From the NCBI GenBank assembly GCA_021826795.1, contig JAKAYM010000083.1:1-7756 (forward strand): a DNA stretch of 7,756 bases, written 5' to 3'. Below, piece by piece: positions 1,227 through 7,756 of this stretch. Position 1 is the stretch's first letter, and every line of letters starts with the position of its first letter. The translations under genes were made by a program, and so were the position numbers. The notes below the pieces were generated by a model. That model made no database searches and was not told the origin of the DNA. It saw only the letters and a program-made list of their open reading frames with translations. Source of the stretch: Thermoplasmata archaeon (lineage in GTDB: Archaea; Thermoplasmatota; Thermoplasmata; Thermoplasmatales; Thermoplasmataceae).

Positions 1227-2054
1227 TTAAAATAATGTTCTGTATCTTTTACTGGTTTCATACTTCCATTCATCCTTCTCCAGTGTGCATGAAACACCAT
1301 ACTCGCCACATGTTTTTTCTATGGACAAATTCAGTCTCTCCCACCACTCAGGATCTGACTTCATATAGCCAGTTCCTGCCATGTATGGTAAGGTGCCTTT
1401 GAAATCCTGGTATGAATCATATATTATACGTATTTTGTTTGCAGCGCAGAATTCCACTATTTTTTTTATATCCTCAATATTATCGTTGAGTCCTCTCACA
1501 ATGGGCCCCAGATACAGCCATGTTTTTATTTTTCTCTGGGTAAGTTTTTTCAGGGCGTTTAACCTTTTGGCAGGATCTGGAGCATATGGCTCCAGCAGTG
1601 ATGCAACCTTTCTGTCAATGGTTGTTACAGTCAGCCCCACATCTAAATTATTTCTGTATTTTTCAAGGATTTCAATGTCTTTTAATATTAAGGGGGATTT
1701 TGTCTGAATTGTAACATAAAATCCGTTTTTGCTGAGTATCTCTATGGCCCTAGGCATAATCCTGAATTTCATTTCAACAGATTGATATGGGTCTGTTATT
1801 GTTGACATTCCGACTATTCCCCTTTTATAAGTACGTGCTTCCCTCTCAAGCAGTGTAATTATATTTTTCCTGACAAAAACTGTCCTTCCCCAGTTGCTGG
1901 AAGCCTCAGAGGGTGACATATCTATTGCATAGCAGTAGCGACATCCATGCAGGCATCCAAGATACGGATTAAAAGCATAGTCAAGCTCTGCCATTCCTGA
2001 TTTACCCAGAGCATGCCTTGCGTTTATTTCAAATATTCTTAAATTTCCTATCAT
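1227..2054 (-). CDS. Radical SAM protein, SplB-like (COG1533 type)
   Basis: The protein has about 275 residues from the ATG at 2054. A TTG three codons upstream (2063) would overlap the preceding stop codon and is less likely. The N-terminal sequence NPYLGCLHGCRYCYA carries the radical SAM signature CxxxCxxC (Cys34, 38 and 41), which binds the [4Fe-4S] cluster used to cleave S-adenosylmethionine. The remaining length suits a TIM-barrel core, with TDPYQSVE and TIQTKSP segments typical of spore-photoproduct-lyase-like proteins. The gene follows nre with only 5 bp between, so the two are surely co-transcribed. That points to nucleic-acid repair or modification, but the substrate is unknown: classical SplB repairs spore thymine dimers, and an archaeon has no spores. 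The best name is SplB-like radical SAM protein. Its 3' end faces the TnpA remnant, 43 bp away. Confidence 0.88.
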   Translation of the reverse strand: MIGNLRIFEINARHALGKSGMAELDYAFNPYLGCLHGCRYCYAIDMSPSEASSNWGRTVFVRKNIITLLEREARTYKRGIVGMSTITDPYQSVEMKFRIMPRAIEILSKNGFYVTIQTKSPLILKDIEILEKYRNNLDVGLTVTTIDRKVASLLEPYAPDPAKRLNALKKLTQRKIKTWLYLGPIVRGLNDNIEDIKKIVEFCAANKIRIIYDSYQDFKGTLPYMAGTGYMKSDPEWWERLNLSIEKTCGEYGVSCTLEKDEWKYETSKRYRTLF

Positions 2055-2059
2055 TTCAA

Positions 2060-3343
2060 TCAATAGTTATCCAGGTTTGATACCAGGTATTTCATATTGT
2101 TGGATTTTGCCTTCCATGCCCTAATATCAACCTTTGTGAATTTCGATACATACTTTACGGCTTCCTGTATATTGTTAAATATTTCAGGTTTCCCTCGGAA
2201 TAGTTCTCTTACATTTTCCCTTACATACCACACACCCACTGGAATATTAAATCCCGGATATATTTCCCTCCAGAGCATCGCTGACCCTGTTCTTTTCATC
2301 TCTCTGTATTTCTCCGCAACTGCAAGCCTTGAAGAATAATAGCATCCACCTATGTCAGGATATGTCTTTCTTCCGTAATAGCCCTCATAATCCAGCTCCA
2401 CCTCAACAGAATCACCAAAACTGTTCCACGTGCTTCCTGGAAACCATGACTCTCCCCACTCAAACATCCACTGTCCAGGAGCCAGTATCCCTATGAAAAG
2501 ATTACCCTTGGTTTCCCTTATATATACCTGAAATTCATCTATCTCATTATAGTCCTTTATTTCTTCCACCAGATTGTCAGATATGGATTTGTCTGCAGCT
2601 GTAATAGACCATCTGGTTGGAACTATCCTCCTCTTCTTTCCCGTGCCCAGCGAACCTGAACTCAGTGCCTTGGAAATGCCATTTATTCCCATACCCTTTT
2701 CATACAGTTTAATTATTCCATTACCAGCTTTTAGATCCCGGTCATAGTATATTTTTTCAATCCTGTTGTCTATATGGTAATTACCAAATTTTATGCTTTT
2801 AAGTGGCGATGATGGTCCCATTGGTGTGATATTCTCATCCAACATCACATTATTTTTAAATGATTTTTCAACAGTCATTTCAATATCTACTGGACTTGAA
2901 GACAGTGAACTTATTTGAATTTCCTGAAGGCGATAGTCTGGATTTGAGGCCCGTGTAGCCTCAACCTTTATTCCGCCTCTTAGCAGGGACAGCCTGTTAG
3001 AGAGAAAGTCATTCAGATCCTGTGAAAGCCATTTTGACTCATCTTCCATATAAGAGGTGTTACCGGTGAATGGAGGCTTTGAAGGATAAATATTTATTTT
3101 CGGGTATCCATACCTCCCTACGAAAAGGGATGGTGGTGATGAACCAGTAATAGAATTCCCTGTAAAAGTATATACTTTCTTTACACGGTCGGCTATTGAA
3201 ACTGGACAGTAGGAAAGCCCACAGAGCATCTTTGCCCCACGGCATTTGACGCATAATGAAGGTGGAATTTTAATAAGGTTTTTCACCATATAACTATAAA
3301 TACTATTATTCATATTAATACTTTTCAATACAATATTTAACAT
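2060..3343 (-). CDS. nre: Archaeal DNA-repair protein Nre (NreA/NreB family)
   Basis: The product is 427 residues long from the furthest ATG. Near the N-terminus it has a four-cysteine zinc-finger pattern, CVKCRGAKMLCGLSYC (Cys31, 34, 41 and 46; CX2CX6CX4C), followed by segments typical of the archaeal Nre family, such as SSPPSLFVGRYGYP, KSIKFG and PTRWSITAADKSIS. Nre proteins are archaeal and protect against DNA damage; family members with a C-terminal PCNA-binding (PIP) peptide act with the sliding clamp. Here the C-terminus (KYLVSNLDNY) shows no clear PIP box. The start is uncertain: internal Met11 (3313) and Met19 (3289) have TATA-like sequences at leaderless distance, and Met19 would leave the usual short lead into the first cysteine. 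The stop lies 5 bp before the radical SAM ATG, so this is the first gene of a two-gene unit. Confidence 0.9.
   Translation of the reverse strand: MLNIVLKSINMNNSIYSYMVKNLIKIPPSLCVKCRGAKMLCGLSYCPVSIADRVKKVYTFTGNSITGSSPPSLFVGRYGYPKINIYPSKPPFTGNTSYMEDESKWLSQDLNDFLSNRLSLLRGGIKVEATRASNPDYRLQEIQISSLSSSPVDIEMTVEKSFKNNVMLDENITPMGPSSPLKSIKFGNYHIDNRIEKIYYDRDLKAGNGIIKLYEKGMGINGISKALSSGSLGTGKKRRIVPTRWSITAADKSISDNLVEEIKDYNEIDEFQVYIRETKGNLFIGILAPGQWMFEWGESWFPGSTWNSFGDSVEVELDYEGYYGRKTYPDIGGCYYSSRLAVAEKYREMKRTGSAMLWREIYPGFNIPVGVWYVRENVRELFRGKPEIFNNIQEAVKYVSKFTKVDIRAWKAKSNNMKYLVSNLDNY
3313..3340 (-). promoter_or_regulatory. Candidate TATA boxes of the nre/radical SAM unit
   Basis: On the - strand TTAAATAT (3340-3333) is centred about 24 bases before the Met11 codon, and TATTAATA (3320-3313) about 27 bases before the Met19 codon. 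Archaeal TATA boxes sit near -26, and Thermoplasmatales mRNAs often start at the ATG, so either could drive a leaderless nre transcript. The whole stretch is AT-rich, which weakens the case and leaves the true start open. Confidence 0.35.
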
Positions 3344-3789
3344 CCTGAAATGAGTTTTTTCCTAACATAACTATAACTGAATTTTTGAGATCCGTCTATC
3401 TATAATTTACAATTAACAATCAAGAGAGAACTTCTAAAAACACATGAAATTCGTGTGTAATTCTTGTTTAGATAACTTAATATTATCCCTATTAACGATT
3501 TCTCAGAGCTAAATCGATGTTGATATTTTCACAAACTGGGTTTTCTTGAAATCCTCATAAGTATACTATTTTCTCCGCATATTGGATATAACATCGGGAT
3601 GAACATTATCAATCCGCATGTCAATGGCCGATTTAAATCCCTAAACTTGGGTTTGGCTGACAGATGAACGTAGAATTAAAAAAATAAGAAGCATGTGTCA
3701 GAAGATAACTTCTCCACGGAATGTCATATGATTAATGGAAATTATAGCTCACTATCCCATGTAAAAGTTGTATGGCTCAGAAATCAGTA
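3344..3789. other. 446-bp intergenic region without a convincing gene
   Basis: Neither strand gives a reading frame with both a plausible start and recognisable similarity. The longest piece read was a + strand frame of about 47 codons (3524 to the stop near 3670) that contains an ATG at 3599; it matches no family I know. The right end lies downstream of the MFS stop and the left end holds the upstream region of nre. It may be a graveyard of a lost gene, or hold an RNA not recognisable by eye. Confidence 0.5.
3678..3684 (-). terminator. Possible oligo-T terminator of the MFS gene
   Basis: Seven consecutive A on the + strand give a T7 run in the - strand transcript about 106 bases after the MFS stop. 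Archaeal RNA polymerase ends at U-rich tracts without a hairpin. In such AT-rich DNA a T7 is not rare, so this is tentative. Confidence 0.25.
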
Positions 3790-4959
3790 TTAATTATTCA
3801 CCTCTGGCATTTTTTTATATTGATATAATATGAAAATAAACAATATTATGACAGGAACGGCAAACAAAAGAAACGTATTTCTTAACCCCACTGAATAAAC
3901 CATTACTCCTGATAGGGATGGAACAAGAACTGCCAGAAACATCATTAATGCAAAGAAATATGTATTTGCCACAGATATTTCGTCTTCCTTGAATGATCTT
4001 GACAATGCTGTTAATGATGTGGGAAAAGTCAAACCATGAGGTATCCCCAGAAAGCTTATGATGATAAAGTAAGTAATTAAACTATCCGAAAAATACACCA
4101 TTATAAGGCCCACAATTGTTATACTAACTGAGGCCATTGTTGTTATGTACAATCTCTTTGCCGGCCTGTATGATAAAAAAAATCTAGATAAGAACGATAA
4201 ACCGAAAAATCCAGAAAGGAGGAGCTCAACAAATGAATACTGAGCATTAAATTCTGTTCTTGCAAATATTCCTCCAAACGTTAAAATTAATGCAAAGGGC
4301 AAATCATATGAAATGTTATTGAAAACCGATAACTTAAATCCATTATTTTTAAAAACATTTATTTTCTTTTGTGTTTTATTATTTTCCGCCGGAAATCTTA
4401 TTTTAAAGGATAATATTATAGCTATAATGCCAAAGGGAATAAAAAAAATGAATAGCTGATTTAAATCAAAATACAATAATATGTAGGATTCTATCAAAGG
4501 ACCTATGACAAGGCTTGCACTTAATGATAAAGTATACAATGTCAGTGCTCTCTCCCTTAATTTTTTATCTTTTATTGTACCTGCTGAGCTCATTATATTT
4601 GGCATAATGGATCCGAAAAAGAATCCGGACAAAATAACTAATATCCAGATACTGTAAACATTTGAAAAATAAAAAACTGGTTCAAGAATTGAATATATCA
4701 CAACGGATGAGATAAATAATTTTCTTCTTTTGTGCATATCAAATCTAGAATTTATAAATCCGCTCATTATTGCCGTTGATCCCATGGCCGTAGCAGCTAA
4801 TATACCTACTTCTATTTCATTGAAGTTCAAATAATATTTTGAAATTAAGGGTATTGTTGTAAGTATCAAATTATTGCTTGCGCGAACTGAAAAGGTAAAT
4901 GTCATTAATAATATTATGTATAAAATTATACCATCACGCCTGTTATTCCAAAATTTCAT
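3790..4959 (-). CDS. Major facilitator superfamily transporter
   Basis: The protein has 389 residues from the ATG at 4959. The frame is open further, to a TTG at 5013, but a good TATA box (5018-5025) would place the transcript start inside that extension, so the ATG is preferred. It is very hydrophobic, with about 12 predicted membrane helices in two groups of six and a polar cytoplasmic loop (AENNKTQKKINVFKNNG) in the middle, the MFS pattern. After helix 2 comes SRFDMHKRRKLF, a version of MFS motif A (GxxxDxxxRR). It would be a secondary transporter in the cytoplasmic membrane, driven by an ion gradient. The substrate cannot be told, since no substrate-specific motif or metabolic neighbour is visible. 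It stands alone, with long spacers on both sides. Confidence 0.85.
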   Translation of the reverse strand: MKFWNNRRDGIILYIILLMTFTFSVRASNNLILTTIPLISKYYLNFNEIEVGILAATAMGSTAIMSGFINSRFDMHKRRKLFISSVVIYSILEPVFYFSNVYSIWILVILSGFFFGSIMPNIMSSAGTIKDKKLRERALTLYTLSLSASLVIGPLIESYILLYFDLNQLFIFFIPFGIIAIILSFKIRFPAENNKTQKKINVFKNNGFKLSVFNNISYDLPFALILTFGGIFARTEFNAQYSFVELLLSGFFGLSFLSRFFLSYRPAKRLYITTMASVSITIVGLIMVYFSDSLITYFIIISFLGIPHGLTFPTSLTALSRSFKEDEISVANTYFFALMMFLAVLVPSLSGVMVYSVGLRNTFLLFAVPVIILFIFILYQYKKMPEVNN

Positions 4960-5017
4960 TTTTCCATGATTAATAAATGGCACATAAGATTTTTTGTGTG
5001 CAATTCCCCTCAATTCA

Positions 5018-5025
5018 TTTTATAG
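5018..5025 (-). promoter_or_regulatory. TATA box of the MFS transporter
   Basis: On the - strand the sequence CTATAAAATG spans this place and gives a strong TATAAAA core. Transcription would begin about 26 bases downstream, near 4995, leaving a leader of roughly 35 bases before the ATG at 4959, with a weak purine stretch (GGAAAA) in front of it. This favours the shorter protein over a TTG start at 5013. Confidence 0.45.
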
Positions 5026-5318
5026 TTAGTCCATAAATTTACAAATGCTATGTCCTGCCAGAAGATGGATTACCTTTTCAATAAACAATCAGGAGATATT
5101 TAGTAAATACCATTACTTTCTACTATAAACTACCAGGAAAATATAACTCTAAATATAAACATATGAGAAAGCACTATCTAAAACCTTTCATAATATGTAT
5201 TTTTCCAGTCACCAGTGTCCAAATCTATAAATTATCTGCGGATACAAAAATGAAGCATAACATTATTATTCCGAAGCGGCAAAATATAATTTAGAACTTT
5301 ATAAGATGTTTATATACA
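5026..5318. other. Intergenic region upstream of the MFS gene and downstream of the Suf regulator
   Basis: AT-rich spacer beyond the MFS promoter. The only reading frame of note is 5163-5294 (+), 43 codons from an ATG. It has no Shine-Dalgarno sequence, no TATA box at leaderless distance and no recognisable similarity, so it is not called a gene. No tRNA or other RNA gene was recognised. Confidence 0.5.
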
Positions 5319-5975
5319 TCATGAAAGTGTGATCTCAACCACACATTTATTGTCTCCATCAGGGAAATTCTCAATAAGTTTGAACCTGTCATTTAAGGTA
5401 TCTGCAAGCATAGATTTTTCAAGTGAGCCGCATACCATATCCTTATTGGTCTTTGCCAGTTCATAAAATATGCAGTTATGCCTTATTATTTTTACAGTAT
5501 CATCATCCACCTCCATCTTAGCGTAATATCCGAGCCTGTTCAGGATATTTACATATTCACTTATTTTTTCCAGTTTTTCTTCCTTGTTTAAGGAGAGAAG
5601 AGACATGTTATCAGACGACACTTCCTTAACCATGTCCTCCGCTATCTTCATTAAAATGCCGTTTAACTTAACGGTTCCAAATTCCCTTTCTATTTCTTTC
5701 AAAAGCATGGATGAAAAGTTGATATATTGTTTTGGGAATATTTGCATTCCCTTTTCAGTCAACTTGTAAAATTTTTTAGGTCTTCCAGTTTTTGCCCTGA
5801 CAAAATATGATGAAACAAGATTGTGGCTTTCAAGAAAACTGATATGTTCTTTTACAGCATTTTTGTTCACTCCCATAATCCCTGACAGCTGGTCAAGTGT
5901 TTTATCGTCATAGAGCAGGGAACTGAGTATAGTGCTTTTGCTATTACCCAGATAATCATTAACTATTTCTTCCAT
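5319..5975 (-). CDS. SufR-like winged-helix transcriptional regulator with Fe-S-type cysteines
   Basis: The protein has 218 residues. Residues 1-75 form a winged helix-turn-helix of the ArsR/MarR type (LDQLSGIMGVNKNAVKEHIS, then a basic wing RAKTGRPKKFYKLTEKG). The middle is helical and probably makes the dimer. The C-terminal domain has HNCIFYELAK (Cys168), MVCGSLE (Cys182) and DGDNKCVVEI (Cys211), spaced C-X13-C-X28-C. This matches the NCPF...C..E...G...C layout of SufR-type regulators, which sense an Fe-S cluster and repress suf operons. The gene is transcribed away from sufC across a 103-bp region holding a long dyad, so it very likely controls both itself and sufCB. A four-cysteine SufR would have another Cys within the X28 gap; here that position is Asp196. 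Cluster binding and the direction of control are inferred. Confidence 0.82.
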   Translation of the reverse strand: MEEIVNDYLGNSKSTILSSLLYDDKTLDQLSGIMGVNKNAVKEHISFLESHNLVSSYFVRAKTGRPKKFYKLTEKGMQIFPKQYINFSSMLLKEIEREFGTVKLNGILMKIAEDMVKEVSSDNMSLLSLNKEEKLEKISEYVNILNRLGYYAKMEVDDDTVKIIRHNCIFYELAKTNKDMVCGSLEKSMLADTLNDRFKLIENFPDGDNKCVVEITLS

Positions 5976-5993
5976 ACAACCACAATTATATAT

Positions 5994-6037
5994 TATAATG
6001 TAATATTTATACTTATATGTATTTTAGTTACATTATA
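5994..6037. promoter_or_regulatory. Inverted-repeat candidate operator between regulator and sufC
   Basis: TATAATGTAA (5994-6003) and TTACATTATA (6028-6037) are perfect 10-bp complements separated by 24 bp. On exactly the same axis (between 6015 and 6016) lies a smaller palindrome, ATAC (6009-6012) and GTAT (6019-6022), with a central TATA (6014-6017). The arms are about 34 bp apart centre to centre, near three helical turns. A winged-helix dimer or tetramer bound here would cover the regulator's own TATA box and lie just upstream of the sufC TATA box. The divergent regulator is the obvious ligand, but binding is inferred. Confidence 0.6.
6004..6011 (-). promoter_or_regulatory. TATA box of the SufR-like regulator
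   Basis: TATAAATA on the - strand is centred about 32 bases before the regulator ATG, which predicts a leader of only a few bases. It falls inside the spacer of the dyad, next to the left arm, so a protein bound to the dyad would block it. Other AT-rich boxes nearby make the exact site uncertain. Confidence 0.45.
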
Positions 6038-6049
6038 CATAATAAAATG

Positions 6050-6057
6050 TTTAAATA
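6050..6057 (+). promoter_or_regulatory. TATA box of the sufCB unit
   Basis: TTTAAATA is centred about 26 bases before the sufC ATG, the archaeal TATA-to-start distance, so transcription should begin at or next to the start codon and give a leaderless mRNA. There is no Shine-Dalgarno sequence in front of this ATG, which agrees. The box lies 12 bases to the right of the dyad. Confidence 0.65.
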
Positions 6058-6078
6058 CCTATTTGTAATGAATCTGTA

Positions 6079-6822
6079 ATGACAAATACAGTACTTGAAA
6101 TCAAAAACCTTAAGGCTGAGGTAGAGGGCAAGGAAATACTCAAGGGCATAGATCTTATTATTAATTCTGGGGAAATACATGCATTGATGGGTCCCAACGG
6201 AGCCGGTAAAAGTACCCTTGGTGAGGTACTTATAGGCCATCCTAATTATAAAGTCACGGGCGGAAAAATTATGGTTAATGGAAAAGACATTACAAGTGCT
6301 CCGCCGGAAGACCGCGCAAAGGCAGGATTATTTCTTGCATTCCAGAATCCAATAACCGTGAGTGGTGTAAAAATATCATCATTTCTCAGGATGGCGTACA
6401 AAAACCTGTATCCTGAGGAGAATATGTCTTTAAAGGACTTTTTCAACATGGTAAAAGCAGTAATGAAGGATGTTGATATAGATGAGTCATTTATATCCAG
6501 GTCCATAAACGATGGATTTTCCGGTGGTGAAAGAAAACGCTTTGAAGTGTTACAAATGGTGATACTTAAACCAAAAATAGTTATTTTAGATGAGATCGAT
6601 TCAGGGCTTGATGTTGATGCTCTGAAACTAGTATCAGCAGAAATAAAAAAAATGTATAATCAGAATGTTGGCTTTTTGATAATTACACATTACCAGAGAA
6701 TTTTAAAGGATATTATCCCGGAATTCGTCCATGTCCTGAAGGACGGAAAGATAGTGATGAATGGAGACAGAACAGTATCTGACAGAATAGAGAATGAAGG
6801 GTACGACTGGATAAAGGAGTGA
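6079..6822 (+). CDS. sufC: SufC, ABC-type ATPase of the SUF Fe-S cluster assembly scaffold
   Basis: The protein has 247 residues, the usual length. All ABC ATPase elements are present in order: Walker A GPNGAGKST (38-46), Q-loop Gln89 (FQNP), signature FSGGERKR (147-154), Walker B IVILDEIDSGLD (167-178) with catalytic Glu172, and the switch His204 (THYQRIL). The EIDSGLD form and the GGERKR signature are typical of SufC rather than of transport ATPases. It is a soluble cytoplasmic ATPase that drives conformational change in the SufBC2D or SufB2C2 scaffold on which Fe-S clusters are built. The start is set by a TATA box 26 bases upstream, so the message is probably leaderless. The stop overlaps the Shine-Dalgarno sequence of sufB, 5 bp before its ATG, so the two are translated from one mRNA. 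Confidence 0.96.
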   Translation: MTNTVLEIKNLKAEVEGKEILKGIDLIINSGEIHALMGPNGAGKSTLGEVLIGHPNYKVTGGKIMVNGKDITSAPPEDRAKAGLFLAFQNPITVSGVKISSFLRMAYKNLYPEENMSLKDFFNMVKAVMKDVDIDESFISRSINDGFSGGERKRFEVLQMVILKPKIVILDEIDSGLDVDALKLVSAEIKKMYNQNVGFLIITHYQRILKDIIPEFVHVLKDGKIVMNGDRTVSDRIENEGYDWIKE

Positions 6823-6823
6823 T
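6814..6823 (+). promoter_or_regulatory. Shine-Dalgarno sequence of sufB
   Basis: AAGGAGTGAT overlaps the last codons and stop of sufC, 4 bases before the sufB ATG, and resembles the anti-Shine-Dalgarno complement GGAGGTGAT with one G missing. It contrasts with the leaderless sufC: the internal gene of the operon uses a ribosome binding site. It fixes the sufB start at 6828. Confidence 0.7.
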
Positions 6824-6827
6824 AAAA

Positions 6828-7756
6828 ATGGAAGACTACAACAAAGATGAGGAAATAGAAAAACTTACTGAAAGTTTAAAGCATAATAAGAAATCCGATT
6901 TCGAATTTCACGACACAATAAATCCTGTATACTCTACGGGGACGGGACTTAACAGGAAAATTGTGGAAGAGATTTCAGATATAAAACATGAACCAGACTG
7001 GATGAGAAGAAGCAGGCTCAAGGCACTGGAAATATTTTTGTCAAAACCAATGCCTACCTGGGGACCAGACCTTTCTGGAATTAACTTCGATAATCTTACA
7101 TACTATTCAAAGCCCGGGGAAACGAAGGCGAAGAACTGGGATGATGTACCTGATAAAATAAAGGAAACATTCAATAAACTGGGTATACCTCAGATGGAGC
7201 AGAAATATCTTGCTGGTTCCGTTGCACAGTACGACAGTGAAGGGGTATATGGAAGCCTGAGAAAGGAATGGGAAGATAAGGGAGTAATATTTACGGACCT
7301 TGATACAGCTGTACAGGAACATCCTGACCTTGTAAAGGATTACTACTGTAAGGCAATACCACCTAGCGATAATAAGTTCGCTGCATTGAATGGTGCTGTA
7401 TGGTCAGGAGGTTCTTTCCTCTACGTACCTAAGAATGTCACTATAGACCTGCCATTGCAGACATATTTCCGAATGAACGGAGAGCAGAGTGGACAATTCG
7501 AGCACACAATAGTGGTGGCAGATGAGGGTGCAAAAGTGCATTATATTGAGGGATGTCTTCCAGATGATGAACTTATAAGCCAGGGTGATAAATTTGTAAC
7601 AATAAATGAATTATTTACCGATGATAAGATTGTTTCAAATACAGGGAACAAAAGGAGTATAACCCGTAAATATGTTCATCCATATAATGGATTTATGTAT
7701 AAAATAATACCATTATCACCAGGAAATGCTTTCAGAGCAACATACGAGCATCCTGT
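6828..7756 (+). CDS. sufB: SufB, Fe-S cluster assembly scaffold, interrupted by an intein (3' truncated by window edge)
   Basis: The frame is open from the ATG to the right edge (309 complete codons). Residues 1-242 are a SufB N-extein: STGTGLNRKIVEEIS, the stretch DWMRRSRLKALEIF, WSGGSFLYVPKNV, then FEHTIVVADEGAKVHYIEG, which lead in normal SufB to the conserved CTAP. Instead the frame runs at Cys243 into CLPDDELISQGDKF, the start of an intein. SufB, with SufC and SufD, forms the scaffold that accepts sulfur and iron for new Fe-S clusters; the active protein appears only after splicing. The M. tuberculosis SufB intein is, as I recall, at the same place after about 252 residues. The C-extein and any sufD lie outside the window. 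The identity is certain; completeness of the intein is not known. Confidence 0.95.
   Translation, partial: MEDYNKDEEIEKLTESLKHNKKSDFEFHDTINPVYSTGTGLNRKIVEEISDIKHEPDWMRRSRLKALEIFLSKPMPTWGPDLSGINFDNLTYYSKPGETKAKNWDDVPDKIKETFNKLGIPQMEQKYLAGSVAQYDSEGVYGSLRKEWEDKGVIFTDLDTAVQEHPDLVKDYYCKAIPPSDNKFAALNGAVWSGGSFLYVPKNVTIDLPLQTYFRMNGEQSGQFEHTIVVADEGAKVHYIEGCLPDDELISQGDKFVTINELFTDDKIVSNTGNKRSITRKYVHPYNGFMYKIIPLSPGNAFRATYEHP
7554..7756 (+). other. Intein N-terminal splicing domain inside SufB (partial)
   Basis: It begins with Cys1 in CLPDDELI (block A; nucleophile for the N-S acyl shift) directly after the conserved SufB HYIEG. The next 67 residues look like a Hint domain: GDKFVTINEL, YNGFMYKIIPL, then block B as ATYEHP, with Thr63 and His66 (TxxH) at the distance usual for inteins. 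None of this resembles SufB. The host would resume with the SufB cysteine of CTAP as the +1 nucleophile. The window ends right after block B, so blocks C to E (homing endonuclease) and the terminal His-Asn are not seen; mini-intein and full-length are equally possible. Confidence 0.88.

Follow-up and report, generated by a model that had tools for sequence, protein, structure and literature searches.

A SufB intein in a Ferroplasma-like archaeon: most likely a homing element that splices constitutively

Introduction

A contig of 7,756 nucleotides from a Thermoplasmata archaeon (the whole stretch analysed here, hereafter the window) ends inside a sufB gene that has just passed from SufB into intein sequence, which raises the question of whether this intein can splice and, if so, whether splicing would control Fe-S assembly or simply restore SufB. 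The initial annotation favoured control, proposing a post-translational gate that responds to metal or redox stress. In E. coli SufB, Cys254 is the point of sulfur entry, and Cys405 is the final sulfur acceptor and a Fe-S ligand (excerpt of PMC6006206). Three points are on record for SufB inteins in the accessible part of PMC8891592: 1) the M. tuberculosis SufB intein, with 359 residues, an endonuclease and a His at -5, follows Gly252, with Cys253 as Cys1 and HN before Cys+1; 2) His-38 has been proposed as a catalytic helper in the mycobacterial SufB intein; 3) Ferroplasma is among the SufB inteins with divergent extein sequences and insertion sites, and the intein of F. acidarmanus has already been compared with the mycobacterial ones, in line with the initial annotation, which had counted Ferroplasma relatives among the probable carriers at this site.

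Results

The suf genes of the window and the part of the intein that it holds comprise the following features:

5319..5975, minus strand: divergent SufR-like regulator (TIGR02702, weak, 42 bits against a cut-off of 178.8, E 7.9e-11)
6079..6822, plus strand: sufC (TIGR01978, E 1.7e-95), directly 5' of sufB and overlapping its start
6819..7553, plus strand: SufB N-extein, to Gly-1 (TIGR01980 and alignment with E. coli SufB, 5awf_A)
7539..7541, plus strand: N-extein His-5, His in 30/30 Thermoplasmata loci
7554..7756, plus strand: N-terminal part of the intein, 67 complete codons, then the window end
7554..7592, plus strand: intein block A, CLPDDELISQGDK, with catalytic Cys1 as TGT 7554-7556; Cys1 in 30/30 gap-free inteins
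7722..7754, plus strand: intein block B, GNAFRATYEHP, with Thr 7740-7742 and His 7749-7751, both in 30/30 gap-free inteins

The sufB frame (6819-7754), for which GTG 6819 (overlapping the sufC stop) and ATG 6828 are the candidate starts, matches TIGR01980 (E 3.7e-104, residues 25-246), reads as SufB to HYIEG and continues from 7554 as CLPDDELISQ...GNAFRATYEHP, open to the window end; the blocks A and B that the initial annotation had named are read here as well. Of about 356 intein codons, the window covers 67; a profile search of this cut-off frame returned no intein family at E 0.001. Based on positions counted from the printed alignments, the Cys+1 that follows the intein aligns with E. coli SufB Cys254, as the initial annotation had it, and the cysteine of QCDAL aligns with Cys405, the insertion lying directly before the Cys254 equivalent, between Gly-1 and Cys+1. 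Compared by the numbering in the excerpt of PMC8891592 only, the M. tuberculosis insertion point looks equivalent.

Elsewhere in the window, an MFS transporter gene (3790-5013) lies between nreA and the SufR-like gene; the matches flanking it are less than 40 bases apart in F. acidarmanus Fer1 (L003) and in L002, and L001 is colinear with the window. An 85-residue frame at 926-1183 matches Y1_Tnp, the profile of IS200-type transposases, in its later part (positions 46-121).

The complete precursor was sought in relatives by a scan of genome contigs, which gave 17 loci (L001-L017). The nearest, L001 (Ferroplasmaceae UBA567), is 98.67% identical to the window over 1821-7756; it shares the N junction of the window and, like the loci below, shows HN/CTAP (the slash marks the splice junction), its frame being broken by two NN gaps (6158-6159 and 7258-7259); an ungapped sufB of the window's own species was not among the loci found. 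Fer1 (L003, NC_021592.1) shares gene, site and organisation with the window, with about 81% nucleotide identity over 5323-7756 and about 81-82% protein identity in the intein as judged from L001, and the window's species, on sequence, is probably another one. The Fer1 intein has 356 residues with a LAGLIDADG region and ends in KGFAVHN, followed by Cys+1. A single open frame of N-extein, intein, HN/CTAP and C-extein was found in Fer1 and in seven gap-free loci (L002, L004-L009), so that the junction and the SufB C-extein stand in these relatives where the initial annotation expected them, with neither a missing HN/C junction nor an early stop; the breaks in L001 sit on its NN gaps.

Profile scores and fold matches are given here for Fer1 unless another locus is named. 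PF14890 (Intein_splicing) reaches 38.9 bits against a cut-off of 35.8 and also matches L006 and L009; PF14528 (LAGLIDADG_3), the region anticipated by the initial annotation, is above cut-off in Fer1 only and below it in L006 and L009; TIGR01443 scores 17.3 against 15.6, and TIGR01445 (intein N-terminus) scores 16.1, below its cut-off of 24.5. The AlphaFold model of the Fer1 intein (27-sequence alignment) has a pLDDT of 93.4, and Foldseek ranks 7qsu, the TliVMA intein with its endonuclease, as the best match (E 1.1e-18, TMq 0.71); TliVMA and PI-SceI (7qsu, 1vde) share the intein-with-homing-endonuclease fold of this model but differ in host protein, with identity of at most 17%. A model of the full precursor (pLDDT 75.5, pTM 0.51) was too weak for placing the intein on SufB. 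The class 1 motif set is represented by Cys1 and TxxH in the window and by HN/CTAP in L001, and is complete in 30/30 gap-free relatives. The intein is real and looks able to splice.

Two of the 203 bases of 7554-7756 are not the same in the window and in L001: the change at 7556 is silent, and the one at 7744 gives the Tyr of ATYEHP (codon 7743-7745) in the window and Ser in L001. Tyr at this block-B position was found in 0/30 gap-free inteins and in 0/116 block-B-pattern homologues among the matches listed. The changed base is 12 bases from the window end, and either rare variation or an error at the contig end could account for the Tyr.

Conservation in relatives separates the two halves of the element. 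Across 30 gap-free inteins from 30 genomes, Cys1, the block-B Thr and His, the penultimate His and the Asn are kept in 30/30, with the proviso that the extraction pattern itself demanded Cys1, the final Asn and Cys+1; this pattern failed in only two of 39 carrier loci, L001 and L032 (gapped records, one contig). Both endonuclease acids were present in 21 of the 30, at least one being lost in nine. Of the LAGLIDADG region, which lies outside the window, Fer1 has both acids and L001 has Asn for the second (KGNG vs. KGDG in Fer1), and, judging from its conspecific L001, the window's species probably has an endonuclease that is impaired by now. Pairwise dN/dS, a rough measure here as dS exceeded 1 or could not be computed for many of the 11 pairs, was 0.005-0.04 for the exteins, 0-0.10 for the splicing part and 0.06-0.33 for the endonuclease part where computable, pointing to purifying selection on the splicing part in relatives.

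The histories of intein and host also differ. L005 groups with L004/L021 in the intein tree and with L007/L008 in the extein tree (supports 99 and 100), and in AU tests each data set rejects the grouping of the other (p 0.0008 and 5e-56). In a 112-protein set, 65 extein splits are supported, 33 of which conflict with an intein split that is itself supported; one pair has an intein identity of 89% vs. an extein identity of 60%. We take this conflict between trees to mean that inteins have moved between lineages. In the same set, 20 supported splits are common to both trees and intein and extein identities correlate (Spearman 0.50), which suggests that inheritance is partly vertical and the overall history mixed. 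Gain, decay and loss of this kind have been described as the homing cycle (excerpt of PMC4071816). Intein-minus L012 and carrier L009 are sisters (support 100). L010 is nearest by identity to carriers L004/L021; its placement in the extein trees is poorly supported, so that loss and never having gained the intein are not distinguishable for it. Of 1010 bases compared between L010 and L011, 11 differ. Among 16 allele pairs, eight of them intein-plus vs. intein-minus, compared in 90-base blocks, no clear homing scar or co-conversion tract was seen beside the insertion, and without a clear dip in divergence there no recent homing event could be dated.

The distribution was surveyed at three levels. 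At the class level, 400 genomes drawn evenly from a larger group were searched with the Fer1 intein, giving a match of any kind in 63 and one with E below 1e-29 in 35; one match each was retrieved from 30 genomes, and in all 30 the intein lies in SufB at the Cys254 site (L032, a gapped UBA567 copy, was read in two pieces). At the family level, a SufB match was found in 74 of the 77 genomes searched. Among the matches listed, at least 16 of the 74 hold an intein-bearing SufB, two of these (G002, G414) also holding an intein-free copy, and the other 58 show no intein-bearing SufB, some being visible only in part (G286 with the N-extein only, G409 with part of the C-extein only). Carriers concentrate near Ferroplasma, making up 11 of the 15 genomes with a SufB at least 80% identical to that of Fer1 (exceptions G010, G011, G039 and G410), a concentration that a beneficial role could also explain. 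SufB is without an intein at the Cys254 site in L010-L017, of which L017 is a bacterium.

The third survey, a protein search, gave 206 matches at E<=1e-3, of which 120 were listed. Among these 120, 111 fit the pattern, all with HN/C(T/S)AP, and 116 have both junctions, five of them off-pattern by slightly different spelling (P0020, P0021, P0031, P0034 and P0116). Only the C junction was present in P0025 and P0086 and only the N junction in P0007; P0085 has the SufB N-extein, the intein and the N junction and ends in ...GFEARFCL without HN/C, being a broken copy or a sequence error. Source names among the matches listed include Nitrososphaerales, Micrarchaeota, Marsarchaeota and several groups of Patescibacteria; the SufB-intein family is a wide one, with members in archaea and Patescibacteria. 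A joint search of the open-licence literature for intein, SufB, archaea and candidate phyla radiation returned no paper.

Some of these homologues carry two inteins. In P0009-P0012 and P0083, one lies at the Cys254 site and the second has an HN/CDALL junction with the Cys405 equivalent as its Cys+1, so that both sulfur-relay cysteines are intein +1 residues in these proteins. Other second SufB inteins have the junctions HN/SEAVYH (P0068) and HN/SK(L/I)TMK (P0079, P0089 and P0110).

Discussion

We consider the element, with a probability of roughly 85%, to be a class-1-type cis-splicing intein with a LAGLIDADG endonuclease region before the Cys254 equivalent of SufB, that is, a homing element whose splicing is most likely constitutive. 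By the standard intein pathway, Cys1 would attack Gly-1, Cys+1 would take the N-extein over from Cys1, the terminal Asn would cyclise with the help of the penultimate His, and the exteins would be ligated into an intact SufB that has its sulfur-acceptor cysteine. On this reading, the homing element has settled in a highly conserved segment of sufB, where its splicing half is kept because unspliced SufB should be dead, and its endonuclease half decays repeatedly, probably in the window's species too. The pattern of mobility and endonuclease decay needs no regulation to explain it, and splicing is most likely constitutive, with no switch.

The initial annotation held up as far as it placed an intein at the Cys254 equivalent, at a site known in Ferroplasma; its proposal that splicing gates Fe-S assembly by metal or redox state was not supported. 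The lineage of Ferroplasma and its relatives combines an iron-rich setting with an acidic cytoplasm, and the proposal would be that oxidants, metals or low internal pH slow splicing, releasing SufB under suitable conditions only. Cys1 and Cys+1 are nucleophiles here too, and the catalytic Cys1 could be a target of oxidation or metal binding, as happens in other inteins. In addition, Cys+1 is a functional residue of SufB (excerpt of PMC6006206), and the M. tuberculosis SufB intein has been reported to be redox-sensitive (excerpt of PMC6195587). Set against these points are: 1) the intein-free SufB of close relatives (L010-L012) and of the 58/74 family genomes among the matches listed, some of them partial; 2) the cysteines of the Fer1 precursor, five in number (-69, 1, 204, +1 and +145), with none in the N-extein nearer than -69; 3) the replacement of the mycobacterial His-38 by Thr in both the window and Fer1; 4) the SufR-like neighbour, which could give transcriptional control instead, its function being judged from a weak match. 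A nearby extein cysteine matters in other conditional splicing switches. Not all inteins, moreover, and not even all those of class 1, show cysteine-based redox inhibition (excerpt of PMC6195587). On balance, we regard such a gate as unlikely. By DNA similarity, the SufR-like gene is also present in intein-minus L010.

As to His-38, the corresponding position is His in 5/30 Thermoplasmata loci and in 11/111 pattern-fitting homologues among the matches listed; the remote-histidine mechanism put forward for mycobacteria thus appears not to be a general one. His-5 was found in 48/111 of the same homologues. If the SufB intein were nevertheless a real control point, an outcome to which we give only a small chance, splicing, and with it Fe-S assembly, would follow redox state, metal or internal pH through a mechanism different from that of mycobacteria, given that His-38 is missing, and natural intein-plus and intein-minus relatives would differ in their Fe-S stress response. 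In the open-licence literature, no splicing study of Ferroplasma SufB was found beyond the sequence comparison in the accessible part of PMC8891592; that paper was the one returned for Ferroplasma, intein and SufB together. Among four papers returned for Ferroplasma, intracellular pH and iron-sulfur, the one searched (PMC12524180) mentions neither SufB nor an intein.

That sufB is instead broken by a non-splicing intein, a pseudogene with SufB supplied from another copy, is very improbable: the nearest record, L001, is without a single open frame, and G002 and G414 hold both kinds of sufB side by side, but the L001 breaks coincide with NN gaps with open frames on either side, the splice residues are conserved with apparent purifying selection on the splicing part in relatives, and the sufB sequences of the G002 contigs L002 and L010 show 10-20% divergence in each 90-base block, so that this bin probably mixes two organisms. 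The pseudogene reading of L001 itself was rejected, its frame breaks falling on the gaps.

The value of this single finding is comparative, the window adding one more species to a kind of intein known already from Ferroplasma and mycobacteria. The occurrence of intein-plus and intein-minus SufB in close relatives makes a direct test of the effect of the intein on Fe-S assembly possible.

Two minor observations concern other open frames. In the genome of L009, a weak intein-like match (28% identity) lies in another open frame of 676 aa (G009:C1:85407-86471). Open frames of 897-909 aa, running from sufB through a SufD-like part, were counted in 10 genomes with intein-free SufB; in L013, L015 and L016, and in the cut-off L014, L073 and L074, TGA closes sufB, and an in-frame stretch that looks SufD-like by eye follows, in all of these but L014 noted as starting a few codons further on. 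Read-through of this TGA to give a sufB-sufD fusion was rejected; it is taken as an ordinary stop because TGA also closes some of the other long frames in L013, L015 and L016.
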